Under the pieces are notes generated by a model. It had not been told where the DNA came from and ran no database searches. It was given only the letters and a program-made list of their open reading frames with translations. This document shows, piece by piece, positions 36,597 through 45,315 of a stretch of DNA of 64,000 bases (within the stretch, counting starts at the first letter, position 1; every line of letters starts with the position of its first letter). Origin of the DNA: Kordia sp. TARA_039_SRF (GTDB lineage: Bacteria > Bacteroidota > Bacteroidia > Flavobacteriales > Flavobacteriaceae); NCBI GenBank assembly GCA_006383075.2, contig SMNH02000005.1, forward strand, positions 1 through 64,000. Reading direction: 5' to 3'. A program made the translations under genes and the position numbers.

Positions 36597-36776
36597 CTGC
36601 CTACATTGGTTTTTATTTTTGATAAACTCAACGTTAATTTAATTAAAAAGAGTGAGTCATGGTTGTAAAAGCAAGCTGCTAGTACTTTGTACTTGGGCAG
36701 ATCCTTGATCAATCTGTTAGCTCTAAACTTGTTTTTTGGAGTTTATACAAAACTCTAATCAATGTAGGCTTTTTTG
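36597..36776 (+). ncRNA. ssrS: 6S RNA (6S-Flavo-like)
   Basis: The 340-base gap between zapA and rny contains a long hairpin. GCCTACATTG (36599-36608) pairs perfectly with CAATGTAGGC (36760-36769), which runs into six T residues. Further in, ATAAACTC (36622-36629) pairs with GAGTTTAT (about 36740-36747), and CTGC-TAGTAC pairs with GTACTT-G-GGCAG at the tip around 36680-36706. Closing stem, large internal bubbles, ~175-nt size, T-run end and location after zapA all match 6S RNA, which binds the housekeeping RNA polymerase. Assignment to the flavobacterial family is by structure and context. Confidence 0.65.
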
Positions 36777-41778: not shown

Positions 41779-42501
41779 ATGCAAAAAGCTTATTTTAATT
41801 GGAGTACAGGAAAAGATTCTGTGCTCGCTTTATATCATGTTTTACAACAGAATGATTATAAGGTCACACAACTCGTCACGACTGTCAATAAAGACTACGA
41901 ACGTGTGTCTATGCACGGTTTGCGAGAAACCTTATTAGATGCGCAAGTAGCGCGATTGCAATTGCCAGTACAAAAAATATACTTTCCTGCCAAAGTTTCC
42001 ATGTCTGCGTATGATGTAACTATGAAAAAAGCCACACAACAGCTTGTTAACAATGGTTTTTCTGTTGGAATTTTTGGTGATATTTTTTTAGAAGATTTAC
42101 GCAAGTACCGTGAAGAAAAACTACAAGAAGTAGGCATAAAAGGTGTTTTTCCGTTGTGGAAGAAAGATACAAAAGCGTTATTGAAAGAATTTATTTCGTT
42201 AGGATTTAAAGCAATTACGGTTTGTGTCAACGCAAAACTATTAGACGAATCTTTTGTGGGAAGAATACTGGATGAAAATTTTATTAACGATTTGCCCGAA
42301 AATGTAGATCCTTGCGGAGAAAATGGAGAATTCCACACGTTTGTGTTTGATGGACCAATTTTTTCCTCATCAATTGAATTTACGATTGGCGAAAAAGTGT
42401 TAAAAACCTATACACCTTCTCAAAACGAGCAAGATACTTGTGCCACAGACGATTCTACTTGGGATACTGCCTTTTGGTACATTGATTTACTACCGAAATA
42501 G
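41779..42501 (+). CDS. Dph6-like ATP-pyrophosphatase (diphthine--ammonia ligase family)
   Basis: A 240-residue protein with an N-terminal PP-loop FNWSTGKDSVLALYHVL (residues 4-20), FGDIFLEDLRKYREEK and the C-terminal CGENGEFHTFVFDGP motif, all typical of the Dph6/adenine nucleotide alpha-hydrolase family. In eukaryotes and archaea it makes diphthamide on EF-2; bacteria lack diphthamide, so its bacterial substrate is unknown. Co-transcribed with aroQ. Confidence 0.88.
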   Translation: MQKAYFNWSTGKDSVLALYHVLQQNDYKVTQLVTTVNKDYERVSMHGLRETLLDAQVARLQLPVQKIYFPAKVSMSAYDVTMKKATQQLVNNGFSVGIFGDIFLEDLRKYREEKLQEVGIKGVFPLWKKDTKALLKEFISLGFKAITVCVNAKLLDESFVGRILDENFINDLPENVDPCGENGEFHTFVFDGPIFSSSIEFTIGEKVLKTYTPSQNEQDTCATDDSTWDTAFWYIDLLPK

Positions 42502-42590: not shown

Positions 42591-42712
42591 TATATTTGAA
42601 TGTGAAACAAACGGAATGTTTCACAGCAATTTTTCATAGCTGAAGGTGGGATATCAGTTATTAGGTTGGTTGAGGAGAAAAGTCATTCAAGTGAGATTGA
42701 ATGACTTTTTTT
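42591..42712 (+). ncRNA. Candidate small RNA with terminator
   Basis: TATATTTG (42591-42598) matches the -7 consensus, though no clear -33 box precedes it. Downstream, TGTGAAAC/GTTTCACA (42601-42625) forms a hairpin and the segment ends in a strong terminator at 42679-42712. No reading frame longer than a few codons lies between. It could equally be the 3' untranslated region of the Dph6-like gene. Confidence 0.35.
42679..42712. terminator. Bidirectional terminator between the Dph6-like gene and lanthipeptide-like genes
   Basis: AAAGTCATTCAA (42679-42690) and TTGAATGACTTT (42697-42708) are perfect arms with a GTGAGA loop and a T tract on the plus strand; on the minus strand it follows the stop of the precursor-peptide gene at 42727. 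Confidence 0.88.
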
Positions 42713-42726
42713 AGTTACTTTTCCTA

Positions 42727-42942
42727 TTATTGTTGTTCTTGTTGGCAAGGAATGTTTTCACTTACACACATATGTATGCTTAAACAAGACTGACACGTTT
42801 TGTTGTCTTGTGTATAGGTAATACAGGACATAACCTCACTACATCTTGCCAAACTTGCGTCTCCGCCAGTGATTTTTTGAGGAGTTAAATCCGAAATAGA
42901 TTTCTTGTTAAGGTTTAATGATTTTAAACTTCTTTTTTTCAT
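42727..42942 (-). CDS. Class I lanthipeptide-like precursor peptide
   Basis: A 71-residue peptide. The leader MKKRSLKSLNLNKKSISDL ends in KITGG (residues 23-27), matching the Bacteroidota class I lanthipeptide leader (KKxLNLNKxxIxxLxxxxITGG). The putative core of 44 residues has seven Cys and many Ser/Thr (ARCSEVMSCITYTQ, TCQSCLSIHMC), suitable for lanthionine rings or disulfides. It is the third of three minus-strand precursor-like genes. LanB, LanC and export genes are absent from the window, so modification would need enzymes encoded elsewhere. Confidence 0.82.
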   Translation of the reverse strand: MKKRSLKSLNLNKKSISDLTPQKITGGDASLARCSEVMSCITYTQDNKTCQSCLSIHMCVSENIPCQQEQQ

Positions 42943-43000
42943 GATATAAAATATTAGATTTATTATCTAAAAAGATACATCAATTCAGTTTCAGTCGCTT

Positions 43001-43076
43001 ACGGGATTACCATATTTAACAGGAAATAGGGTGAAACAGATACAAATACTGATAAAAAAAGCGAACCGAAGTTCGC
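43001..43076 (-). repeat. 76-bp duplicated terminator/leader cassette, copy 1
   Basis: About 68 of 76 bases match, without gaps, the segment at 43314-43389. On the minus strand it starts with the terminator GCGAAC-TTCG-GTTCGC-T7 of the gene at 43083 and continues into the leader of the gene at 42727, including a conserved TGTTAAATA and an AATCCCGT motif. Confidence 0.85.
43054..43076 (-). terminator. Terminator of precursor gene 2
   Basis: GCGAAC, loop TTCG, GTTCGC, then seven T residues on the minus strand, seven bases after the stop codon. Confidence 0.88.
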
Positions 43077-43082
43077 AAAATT

Positions 43083-43253
43083 TTAATTGTGATCACATCC
43101 TGGTGTGAGCTGTTTTTCTTTGTCACAAGTTCCGTACGATTGGTTTTCGCAGCAACCTGACATGTCGCTTCCGCCTCCTTTAATTTGTTGTTGATTCACG
43201 GCAGAAATTGGCGTTTTGTTAAGTCGTAAGGTTTTTAAATGTCTTTTTTTCAT
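43083..43253 (-). CDS. Class I lanthipeptide-like precursor peptide 2
   Basis: A 56-residue gene below usual length limits. The leader MKKRHLKTLRLNKTPISAV ends in QIKGG (residues 23-27), closely matching the leader of the next gene (MKKRSLKSLNLNKKSIS). The core has five Cys (SGCCENQ, GTCDKEK, PGCDHN) and ends in HN. Both flanks carry the duplicated 76-bp cassette, so it arose with its neighbour by tandem duplication and then diverged in the core. Confidence 0.78.
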   Translation of the reverse strand: MKKRHLKTLRLNKTPISAVNQQQIKGGGSDMSGCCENQSYGTCDKEKQLTPGCDHN

Positions 43254-43313
43254 GATATCTTATTTTTGGTTAGATAGTGTCCATAAGATACAGAGATAAT
43301 TTATGAGTCATGT

Positions 43314-43389
43314 ACGGGATTCCCTTATTTAACAGAGAAAAGGGTGAAACAACTACAAATGCTGATAAAAAAAGCGAACCGAAGTTCGC
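43314..43389 (-). repeat. 76-bp duplicated terminator/leader cassette, copy 2
   Basis: Gap-free partner of 43001-43076. It carries the terminator of the gene at 43395 and the leader of the gene at 43083. Confidence 0.85.
43367..43389 (-). terminator. Terminator of precursor gene 3
   Basis: Same GCGAAC-TTCG-GTTCGC stem plus T7 as at 43054-43076, five bases after the stop codon. Confidence 0.88.
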
Positions 43390-43394
43390 TTATG

Positions 43395-43505
43395 TTATTT
43401 TGTTTGTGTTTCTTGTTGAATTTGATGGATTTGTGCGGCTGTTTTATTCCCTCCAGCAATCATGTGTACATTTTGAGCTTCGAATTTTTTCAGTTTTTCT
43501 AACAT
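43395..43505 (-). CDS. Short double-glycine leader peptide
   Basis: A 36-residue gene: a helical leader MLEKLKKFEAQNVHMIAGG ends in the AGG motif at residues 17-19, and the remainder is 17 polar residues rich in Gln and Thr without Cys. It is the first of the three minus-strand units and shares the downstream terminator cassette with the other two, which supports its being a real gene. The leader type differs from its neighbours (no LNLNK box). Product and processing are unknown. Confidence 0.62.
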   Translation of the reverse strand: MLEKLKKFEAQNVHMIAGGNKTAAQIHQIQQETQTK

Positions 43506-43564: not shown

Positions 43565-43867
43565 TTAATTGGTTCTTAGGTATTTTCGTTCCACATAAAA
43601 AGTCGCAAACGGAAGTAAAGAAGCTATAAACAACAAAGCAAAGCGTTTCATAGTCCATTTTTGTTCTTCGGTAACTAAGTACGCGTATACAACATATACA
43701 ATAAACAGAATACCATGTGCAATTCCCACAATTTTATTCGGCCATAAAATCTCCATCATATATTTGAGTGGCATGGTAATAAAAAAGGCGATATAGGAAA
43801 TTCCTTCGGCAATGGCAATCCATCGAAAGGTTTTTAGGGTGTTAGTTTCTTTAATTTGTGAATCCAT
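43565..43867 (-). CDS. DUF3817 family membrane protein
   Basis: Started at the ATG at 43867 (100 residues). It has three membrane helices and the DUF3817 pattern: RWIAIAEGISYIAFFITMPL, then a loop KYMMEILWPNKIVGIAHGIL and a final helix with LLPFATFYVERK. The family is found widely as small membrane proteins fused or linked to transporters; function is unknown. It follows lpdA on the same strand but a terminator lies between. Confidence 0.85.
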   Translation of the reverse strand: MDSQIKETNTLKTFRWIAIAEGISYIAFFITMPLKYMMEILWPNKIVGIAHGILFIVYVVYAYLVTEEQKWTMKRFALLFIASLLPFATFYVERKYLRTN

Positions 43868-43883
43868 AATTTTTTGAGTATAA

Positions 43884-43910
43884 AAAAAGCCACTCAATGA
43901 GCAGCTTTTT
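43884..43910 (-). terminator. lpdA terminator
   Basis: On the minus strand AAAAAGC and GCTTTTT flank an inner CTCA/TGAG stem, giving a hairpin with a T tract 14 bases after the lpdA stop codon. Confidence 0.7.
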
Positions 43911-43923
43911 AAAAAATATATTG

Positions 43924-45315
43924 TTAAATGTGAATGACTTCATCATAGGCAGCTGCCACAGCTTCCATGACCGCTTCGCTCATCGTTGGATGCGGATGCA
44001 CTGCTTTGAGTACTTCGTGTCCTGTAGTTTCTAATTTTCTACCCAATACAGCTTCCGCAATCATATCTGTTACGCCAGCACCAATCATGTGACAACCTAA
44101 CCATTCGCCGTATTTTGCGTCAAAAATTACTTTTACAAAACCTTCTTTGTTTCCTCCAGCACTTGCTTTTCCAGATGCTGAGAATGGAAATTTACCAACT
44201 TTGATATCGTATCCTTGTTCTTTAGCTTTTGCTTCTGTCAATCCAACCGAAGCAATTTCGGGCGTACAGTACGTACAACCTGGAATATTTCCGTAGTCTA
44301 ACGCTTCTACATGCATTCCTGCAATTCTCTCTACACACAAAATTCCTTCTGCCGAAGCTACGTGTGCCAAAGCTGGTCCAGGCGTTACATCACCAATAGC
44401 ATAATATCCTGGAATGTTGGTTTGGTAGTAATCGTTCACTAAGATTTTATCTCTATCCGTCGCGATGCCTACATCTTCCAATCCGATGTTTTCAATATTT
44501 GTTTTAATTCCTACAGCCGATAACACGATGTCTGCTTCTAATACTTCTTCGCCTTTTTTCGTTTTTACCGTCGCTTTTACACCGTCGCCAGAAGTATCAA
44601 CCGATGTTACTTCCGCAGACGTCATAATTTTGATACCACTTTTCTTAAATGAACGCTCCAATTGTTTTGAAACCTCATCATCTTCTACAGGAACGATTTT
44701 TGGCATGTATTCAACAATCGTCACTTCTGTTCCCATAGAGTTGTAGAAATACGCGAATTCAACTCCAATCGCACCTGAACCTACGACAATCATTTTCTTA
44801 GGTTGCTTGTCAAGCGTCATGGCTTTACGATAGCCAATCACTTTTTCGCCATCTTGCGGTAAACTTGGCAATTCGCGAGAACGCGCACCAGTTGCTACAA
44901 TAATATGCTTTGCGCTATATTCAGTTTTCTTTCCGTCTTTATCAGTGACTTCAAGTTTTTTTCCAGTTTTGAGTTTTCCAAAACCTTCAATCACGTCGAT
45001 TTTGTTCTTTTTCATTAAGAATTGAACACCTTTGCTCATTCCGTCTGCTACATTACGACTACGTTTTACAACCGCATCAAAGTCTTTGTCATATTCTTTT
45101 ACGGACAATCCATAATCGCCAGCGTGTTTCAAATATTCAAAAACTTGTGCAGATTTCAATAAAGCTTTTGTTGGAATACATCCCCAATTTAAGCAAACGC
45201 CACCGAGACTTTCTTTCTCAACTACGGCAGTTTTAAATCCTAATTGAGAAGCTCTAATAGCGGTGACATATCCACCAGGACCACTTCCTAAAACGATGAT
45301 ATCGTATGTACTCAT
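43924..45315 (-). CDS. lpdA: Dihydrolipoyl dehydrogenase
   Basis: A 463-residue flavoprotein, the E3 subunit of pyruvate and 2-oxoglutarate dehydrogenase complexes. It has the FAD motif VLGSGPGGYVTAIRA, the redox-active C41/C46 pair in GGVCLNWGCIPTK, the NAD motif VVGSGAIGVEFAYF, a second FAD motif YAIGDVTPGPALAHVA and the active-site H442/E447 in HPHPTMSEAV. It is encoded alone, away from the E1/E2 genes. Confidence 0.96.
   Translation of the reverse strand: MSTYDIIVLGSGPGGYVTAIRASQLGFKTAVVEKESLGGVCLNWGCIPTKALLKSAQVFEYLKHAGDYGLSVKEYDKDFDAVVKRSRNVADGMSKGVQFLMKKNKIDVIEGFGKLKTGKKLEVTDKDGKKTEYSAKHIIVATGARSRELPSLPQDGEKVIGYRKAMTLDKQPKKMIVVGSGAIGVEFAYFYNSMGTEVTIVEYMPKIVPVEDDEVSKQLERSFKKSGIKIMTSAEVTSVDTSGDGVKATVKTKKGEEVLEADIVLSAVGIKTNIENIGLEDVGIATDRDKILVNDYYQTNIPGYYAIGDVTPGPALAHVASAEGILCVERIAGMHVEALDYGNIPGCTYCTPEIASVGLTEAKAKEQGYDIKVGKFPFSASGKASAGGNKEGFVKVIFDAKYGEWLGCHMIGAGVTDMIAEAVLGRKLETTGHEVLKAVHPHPTMSEAVMEAVAAAYDEVIHI

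Follow-up and report, generated by a model that had tools for sequence, protein, structure and literature searches.

What acts on lanthipeptide-type precursors that have no modification or export genes beside them? The question is raised by a short interval between lpdA and a dph6-like gene in Kordia sp. TARA_039_SRF, whose genome of 4.59 Mb lies in 27 contigs; the window analyzed here is a stretch of 64,000 nucleotides, bases 1-64000 of contig C5. The present analysis suggests that two small genes of this interval, here called gene 2 and gene 3, are probably orphan class I lanthipeptide-type precursors, whose products would be modified in trans by a single LanB/LanC/C39-exporter cluster on contig C1.

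Results

Three small genes between lpdA and dph6

The interval contains, in order, lpdA and a DUF3817 gene, three minus-strand small ORFs, and a convergent dph6-like gene (Table 1). The three ORFs of 36, 56, and 71 aa, first picked out in a reading of the letters alone (the sequence-only reading), were confirmed, and their leaders end in IAGG, IKGG, and ITGG, respectively. They had been taken for one family of three genes, a grouping that holds for genes 2 and 3, both with class I lanthipeptide-type leaders, but not for the 36-aa gene, which has another leader type and no Cys. The accompanying statement that no modification or export genes lie nearby also stands: there are zero LanB, LanC, or C39 domain matches inside the 64-kb window, and the closest machinery-type domain match, that of a LanM, lies 64 kb past the window end on the same contig. 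A profile scan found no further leaders of the LxLNK family among the window ORFs (next best E 0.09). Another leader of that family (E 6.1e-10) occurs at G000:C5:64048-64128, G000 being this genome, and starts 48 bases outside the window's right end. The Rfam matches of the window are ordinary and consist only of a 6S-Flavo RNA (36626-36744, 99.1 bits) and, at the window edge, a 5'-truncated 5S rRNA (1-85).

Table 1. Features of the lpdA-dph6 interval, in window coordinates
Feature	Position	Strand	Remarks
Dph6-like ATP pyrophosphatase gene, low-coordinate syntenic anchor	41779..42501	+	PF01902; 11/11 genus genomes
Terminator-like inverted repeat 3' of gene 3, sequence differs from GCGAAC hairpin	42678..42709	-	pair 13/13 complementary
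Gene 3, 71-aa precursor-like ORF	42727..42942	-	leader MKKRSLKSLNLNKKSISDLTPQKITGG; 6 core Cys
Repeat copy 2: gene 2's terminator and non-coding DNA upstream of gene 3	42972..43076	-	85/105 identical to copy 1
Terminator hairpin GCGAAC-TTCG-GTTCGC, then T7	43061..43076	-	sequence and fold prediction
Gene 2, 56-aa precursor-like ORF	43083..43253	-	leader MKKRHLKTLRLNKTPISAVNQQQIKGG; 4 core Cys
Repeat copy 1: 36-aa gene's terminator and non-coding DNA upstream of gene 2	43285..43389	-	85/105 identical to copy 2
Terminator hairpin GCGAAC-TTCG-GTTCGC, then T7	43374..43389	-	sequence and fold prediction
36-aa ORF	43395..43505	-	leader MLEKLKKFEAQNVHMIAGG; Cys-free core; second GG-leader peptide family
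DUF3817 membrane protein gene, between lpdA and peptide genes	43565..43897	-	PF12823
Dihydrolipoyl dehydrogenase gene lpdA, high-coordinate syntenic anchor	43924..45315	-	TIGR01350

One leader, many cores

At E ≤ 1, genes 2 and 3 match a single family, NF038153 (lant_leader_L1a), and Pfam has none for either. At 16.4 bits (gene 3) and 12.9 bits (gene 2) both fall below the curated cut-off of 22 bits and are therefore not filed as members. Across the genome the same model matches at least 88 places at E ≤ 1, and, unlike genes 2 and 3, at least 26 other places exceed the cut-off (best 150 of 172 candidates). A home-made leader profile, seeded with 101 leaders of this genome under a rule requiring Cys (one seed was later judged false), matches gene 3 at E 6.8e-14 and gene 2 at E 2.7e-13 in a scan of the window, both peptides being in the seed. 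The stretches of the genome that were read contain 129 precursor-like ORFs (130 rows minus one false), which group into 72 sites at 3-kb linkage and lie on 18 contigs. For the genome as a whole 129 is a floor, since reading was confined to the surroundings of matches, a minor fraction of its length. Forty of these sites hold a single gene, and the largest two have five genes each. The consensus of 84 of the leaders is MKKxxLKxLxLxKxxISxLxxxxxxGG, and the strict motif LxLxKx5L is present in 86/129 leaders, against 0.8 after shuffling. In gene 3, LNLNKKSISDL fits this motif, and in gene 2, LRLNKTPISAV has V for the last L; both leaders end in GG. The class I lanthipeptide type that had been read from the leaders of these two genes is supported, and leaders of this kind occur throughout the genome.

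The proposal that the leader is kept while paralogous cores are mostly unrelated is also borne out, with the 129 cores falling into 105 clusters (BLASTP E 1e-3), 89 of them singletons. Cys makes up 11.8% of the cores, compared with 0.1% of the leaders and 0.9% of 14 large proteins of the window. Since the profile seeds required Cys, a fairer check, which offsets the bias only partly, is given by 29 peptides that the leader profile added without the Cys rule; 27 of these have Cys, and the Cys content is 11.0%. The four ORFs dropped by the Cys rule lack a GG leader.

A single LanB/LanC cluster on another contig

A search of the genome for LanB, LanC, and C39 peptidases, which the sequence-only reading had called for, located the machinery in trans. 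The genome encodes exactly one LanB N-terminal domain, a LanB C-terminal part, and an adjacent LanC, with LanB split into an N-terminal part of 751 aa and a C-terminal part of 302 aa. The LanB cluster lies on C1, the peptide locus on C5, and genes 2 and 3 are therefore outside it. Besides the LanB parts and LanC, the cluster contains a C39 peptidase ABC transporter and a HlyD-type adaptor, both ~6-10 kb from LanB, together with four precursors and two TPR-AraC regulators. Its domain matches include PF04738 (E 1.4e-150), PF14028 (1.4e-72), and PF05147 (1.2e-45) as well as C39-ABC and HlyD. Solved NisB aligns to LanB residues 38-742 and 9g04 to residues 5-738, LanC has the zinc-ligand motifs AWCYG and CHG, and LanB shares 88-98% identity with eight Kordia records. 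The four precursors beside LanB have divergent leaders, which at 16.1-21.5 bits with the profile are among the lowest of the 129. Within the cluster (L100:11009-14919), the two TPR-AraC regulators alternate with precursors.

Other lanthionine-type genes are found elsewhere in the genome. A class II LanM (TIGR03897, 770 bits) is encoded at L106:2768-5641, beside a precursor-like ORF of 64 aa (L106:2500-2694) whose leader is of another type; together the two lie at ~126.5-129.6 kb of G000:C5. At L107:5352-6911, with zero LanB domain matches nearby, an 80-aa precursor-like ORF that has a Lys-rich GG leader is followed directly, on its 3' side, by the gene for a LanC-like protein whose N-terminus is hydrophobic. 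A LanC distant from LanB lies in a minus-strand ORF run at L105:5663-10124, in which a 290-aa ORF starts with Cys- and GPTGT-containing repeats.

Proposed modification in trans and its alternatives

Under the reading that we prefer, the single LanB would bind the common leader and dehydrate Ser/Thr in the varied cores, LanC would close Cys thioether rings with Ser/Thr residues 4-6 positions N-terminal to the Cys, and the C39 exporter would cleave after GG and secrete the product. That this enzyme acts on dispersed precursors we infer from co-occurrence and leader sharing. The main competing explanation, which we hold to be unlikely, is that the peptides have GG leaders for export by C39, are not lanthionine-modified, and form disulfides outside the cell, as class II bacteriocin-like or signal peptides, with LanB serving only its adjacent precursors. 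GG leaders, five C39 domain matches in the genome, and the divergent leaders of the LanB-side precursors all speak for unmodified export, as does the Cys-poor second family at the locus, which is also GG-led.

The joint distribution of leader and LanB across genomes favors modification in trans and, in the family sample, argues against unmodified export. In all 11 genus genomes there is exactly one LanB N-terminal domain (E ≤ 0.001) and an abundance of leader matches (84-leader alignment, E ≤ 0.1), at least 150 in 8 of them and 138, 132, and 126 in the others. In a family sample of 249 genomes from 235 genera (E ≤ 0.001), the leader occurs in 11 and LanB in 21, and all 11 leader-positive genomes are LanB-positive; the other 10 of the 21 have LanB and no leader of the profile at that threshold, which speaks against a strict link. 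Outside the genus, 9/9 genomes with the leader have LanB, against 19 LanB-positive of 247 (hypergeometric p ~1e-11, uncorrected for kinship). The top leader counts there are 16 (G087) and 6 (G148, one with an internal stop), and in a phylum sample of 395 genomes 7 have a leader match, and no genome other than our own has more than 5. Furthermore, when LanB loci were fetched with flanks of up to 10 kb per side, 19 of 20 held 1-7 profile leaders (E ≤ 0.05; several weak), the remaining one being a short Aminicenantes contig. LxLNK-type leaders are present at the LanB loci of both Lacinutrix and Aquimarina, which again counts against unmodified export. The Lacinutrix leader, MKKKNLKSLKLNKKSISNFKSEEISGG (E 1.6e-11), lies ~1.6 kb from LanB and is nearly the consensus of the dispersed Kordia leaders; it is the most direct link between leader and LanB.

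The cores themselves point in the same direction. In the usual lanthionine order, Ser/Thr stands N-terminal to its Cys. In 96 representative cores with at most 7 Cys, compared with 1000 shuffles, Ser/Thr occurs 3-6 residues before Cys 389 times versus 279 +/- 14 in shuffled cores, and 3-6 residues after Cys 240 times versus 280 +/- 15. Among single positions after clustering, -4, -5, and -6 are enriched; +2 is enriched too and -3 is not, both of which count against the preferred reading. This directional spacing, along with an odd number of Cys in 61/129 cores, is evidence against disulfide-bonded, unmodified products.

Less probable still is that other enzymes modify these peptides, be they radical SAM enzymes, LanM, or stand-alone LanC proteins. 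The genome does have LanM and extra LanC genes, and the text of PMC11118758 that concerns Kordia names both rSAM-modified peptides and lanthipeptides. However, the motif CxxxCxxC is absent from 247 distinct ORFs of at least 180 aa in the own-genome neighborhoods examined, and the small ORF adjacent to LanM does not share the LxLNK leader.

A local repeat of terminator and upstream DNA

Segments 43001-43076 and 43314-43389 had been matched by eye at about 68 of 76 positions, and the ungapped identity is exactly 68/76; the best pair of 76-mers in 200 mononucleotide shuffles of the 779-nt region reaches at most 45/76. The repeat extends to 105 nt. It was said to hold the terminator of one gene and the leader of the next. 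The terminator is indeed inside it, but the copies end 31 and 29 nt short of the start codons, so the peptide leader is not, and the rest of the repeat is non-coding upstream DNA. Genes 2 and 3 each have their own upstream region.

The notion of the segment as a mobile or genome-wide cassette is not supported, as the 51-nt hairpin-free part has no copies beyond these two in the sequence searched. A 21-22-nt remnant of that part lies upstream of the gene-2 orthologs in G005, G009, and G010 (G001 to G010 denote the other genus genomes). A DNA search of the genome (best 40 of 110 candidates) returned the hairpin and the leader codons as the recurring parts. One more match, at C1:542800, extends through the upstream region (69% over 120 bases). 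The repeat is best read as terminator and upstream region that were locally duplicated or converted.

The hairpin GCGAAC...GTTCGC occurs within 80 nt 3' of just 11/128 precursors and is thus reused rather than diagnostic; as a common terminator of the precursor set it was rejected on this count. RNA folds of the two upstream regions give z scores of -2.7 and -2.0, with the terminator hairpin common to both and the remaining predicted folds different. A candidate shared promoter motif was likewise set aside: all that a ZOOPS search drew from 128 upstream regions was A/T-rich patterns and tracts resembling terminators, with no recognizable promoter among them, at a log-likelihood above that of one mononucleotide shuffle. 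TAnnTTTG is present in 14/128 of these regions.

Gain, loss, and decay at the locus

Between lpdA and the dph6 anchor, 9/11 genus genomes (8 besides our own) have 1-4 intact leader genes: four in G001, G004, G008, and G009, two in our genome and in G010, and one in G003, G005, and G006. The interval of G002 was searched for leader genes and has none, and that of G007 has zero intact genes of the LxLNK family and three relics. The first relic lacks an in-frame start codon, the second has a stop right after the leader and before GG, and the third has neither start nor GG. The same G007 interval (L145) also holds an intact ORF whose GG leader is of yet another type (MKKNILNLEGVKEINKTEQAAINGG) and whose core contains Cys. 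The sequence-only reading had held that frameshifted relatives or absence of leader conservation would tell against it; leader conservation holds, and broken copies exist in one relative, G007.

Orthologs of gene 2, all retaining the 4 core Cys, occur in G005, G009, G004, and G010. For gene 3 there is a single ortholog, which retains all 6 core Cys, in G008, which has no gene 2. The 36-aa ORF has an ortholog at the same locus in G003. The comparison of core and leader substitution that had been proposed was run, with a divided outcome. In 9/10 gene-2 pairs the core is better conserved than the leader (core 72-93% identity, leader 52-89%), as it is in the 36-aa pair, whereas the leader is the better conserved part in the 47-aa group (6/6 pairs) and in the 68-aa, 52-aa, and gene-3 pairs. 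We report pN and pS in place of dN/dS, since pS is saturated in some pairs. Core pN is 0.03-0.16 versus pS 0.42-0.98 in gene-2 pairs, and pN is below pS in 19/20 ortholog pairs overall, with pN = pS (0.22) in the 52-aa pair. The idea of a diversifying peptide family is therefore retained for the mostly unrelated paralogous cores and not for the orthologous ones: low pN relative to pS and the kept Cys indicate maintained genes that turn over by gain, loss, and decay, with no visible diversifying selection on cores. Most core lineages at the locus would then be separate products under purifying selection, with genes gained, lost, and broken at such sites.

Each of genes 2 and 3 has orthologs in species that lack the other, an indication that the two cores diverged before the copying of the repeat. 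The earlier model of leader and regulatory DNA as a duplicated cassette driving core diversification, favored by the 68/76 identity and the unlike cores of the two units, is thus very improbable, given these orthologs, an upstream part with two copies only, both at this locus, in the sequence searched, and orthologous cores with mostly pN < pS.

Relation to known lanthipeptide systems

In the passages concerned, Walker et al. 2020 (PMC7268733) describe class I lanthipeptide precursors of Bacteroidetes that have LxLxKx5L-GG leaders and were mined from gene clusters. The Kordia precursors resemble that type in the leader and in the C39 protease of the LanB cluster. They differ in position: the precursors described in those passages stand in clusters, and the Kordia ones are spread over their 72 sites, few of them near the sole LanB.

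The arrangement is also reminiscent of the prochlorosins and synechococsins (ProcA/SyncA with ProcM/SyncM), in which, as the relevant passages of PMC10783134 and PMC12328550 have it, one synthetase accompanies many dispersed precursors with a common GG leader and varied Cys-containing cores. In the parts that treat them, the highest numbers are the 83 and 79 precursors that PMC10783134 gives for two strains of Synechococcus, and PMC12328550 calls SyncM, with its 79 precursors, the most flexible reported; Kordia genomes have at least 126-150 leader matches each. The likeness to a one-enzyme/many-substrate system is, for Kordia, one of gene content. Prochlorosins have a class II LanM and a Nif11 leader, whereas Kordia has a class I split LanB with LanC and an LxLxK leader, and its precursors thus lie outside the prochlorosin family proper. 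Moreover, unlike the prochlorosins, most orthologous cores at the Kordia locus are kept between species. The evidence inclines us to regard Kordia as a class I counterpart of the prochlorosins, of independent origin, with one LanB/LanC pair per species and more than 100 scattered orphan precursors; this would be the largest one-enzyme lanthipeptide set known to us, with many products selectively kept rather than forming a random library.

That Kordia is rich in precursors is already published: the portion of the TrRiPP mining study (PMC11118758) on this point counts as many as 176 RiPP precursors in a single Bacteroidota genome and lists Kordia among its examples of RiPP-rich genera. Its main text contains none of the words LanB, leader, orphan, and prochlorosin. 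PMC7477175 and PMC10734526 mention lanthipeptide or RiPP clusters in Kordia, and their passages on these contain no system of one LanB with dispersed precursors. Among the matches listed, titles and abstract openings likewise gave no single LanB with dispersed Kordia precursors (subscription journals, preprints, and supplements lie outside this scope).

Should a single LanB/LanC pair serve more than 100 dissimilar cores, it would be tolerant of its substrates, belong to another mechanistic class than ProcM, and be of use in peptide engineering. Class I dehydratases depend on glutamyl-tRNA, unlike ProcM. With such a system it could also be tested directly why certain marine bacteria maintain large sets of lanthipeptides, since the 11 genus genomes allow orthologous cores to be compared. 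Gene-cluster mining confined to the neighborhood of LanB would overlook most of the precursors.

A second family of GG-leader peptides

The 36-aa peptide does not match the LxLNK leader profile and is a different GG-leader peptide, probably unmodified. A match to mannosyl-phosphoglycerate phosphatase was rejected as chance (13 bits versus cut-offs of 282 and 315). In a search of the genus, the peptide has some match in 9/11 genomes at E ≤ 1; the G003 ortholog gives 7e-5, and the matches other than self and G003 are each individually weak, two having an internal stop. The leader of this second family reads M-L/I-x-K-L/F-KKFEI-x-N-x3-I-x-GG, and 19 such peptides were found by pattern in the loci examined, 14 of them without core Cys. 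These peptides are possibly signal peptides. At L018, L128, L133, and L134, several members end in nearly the same tail, ATEYIILL or VEYIIIL, and others end in TQYISS.
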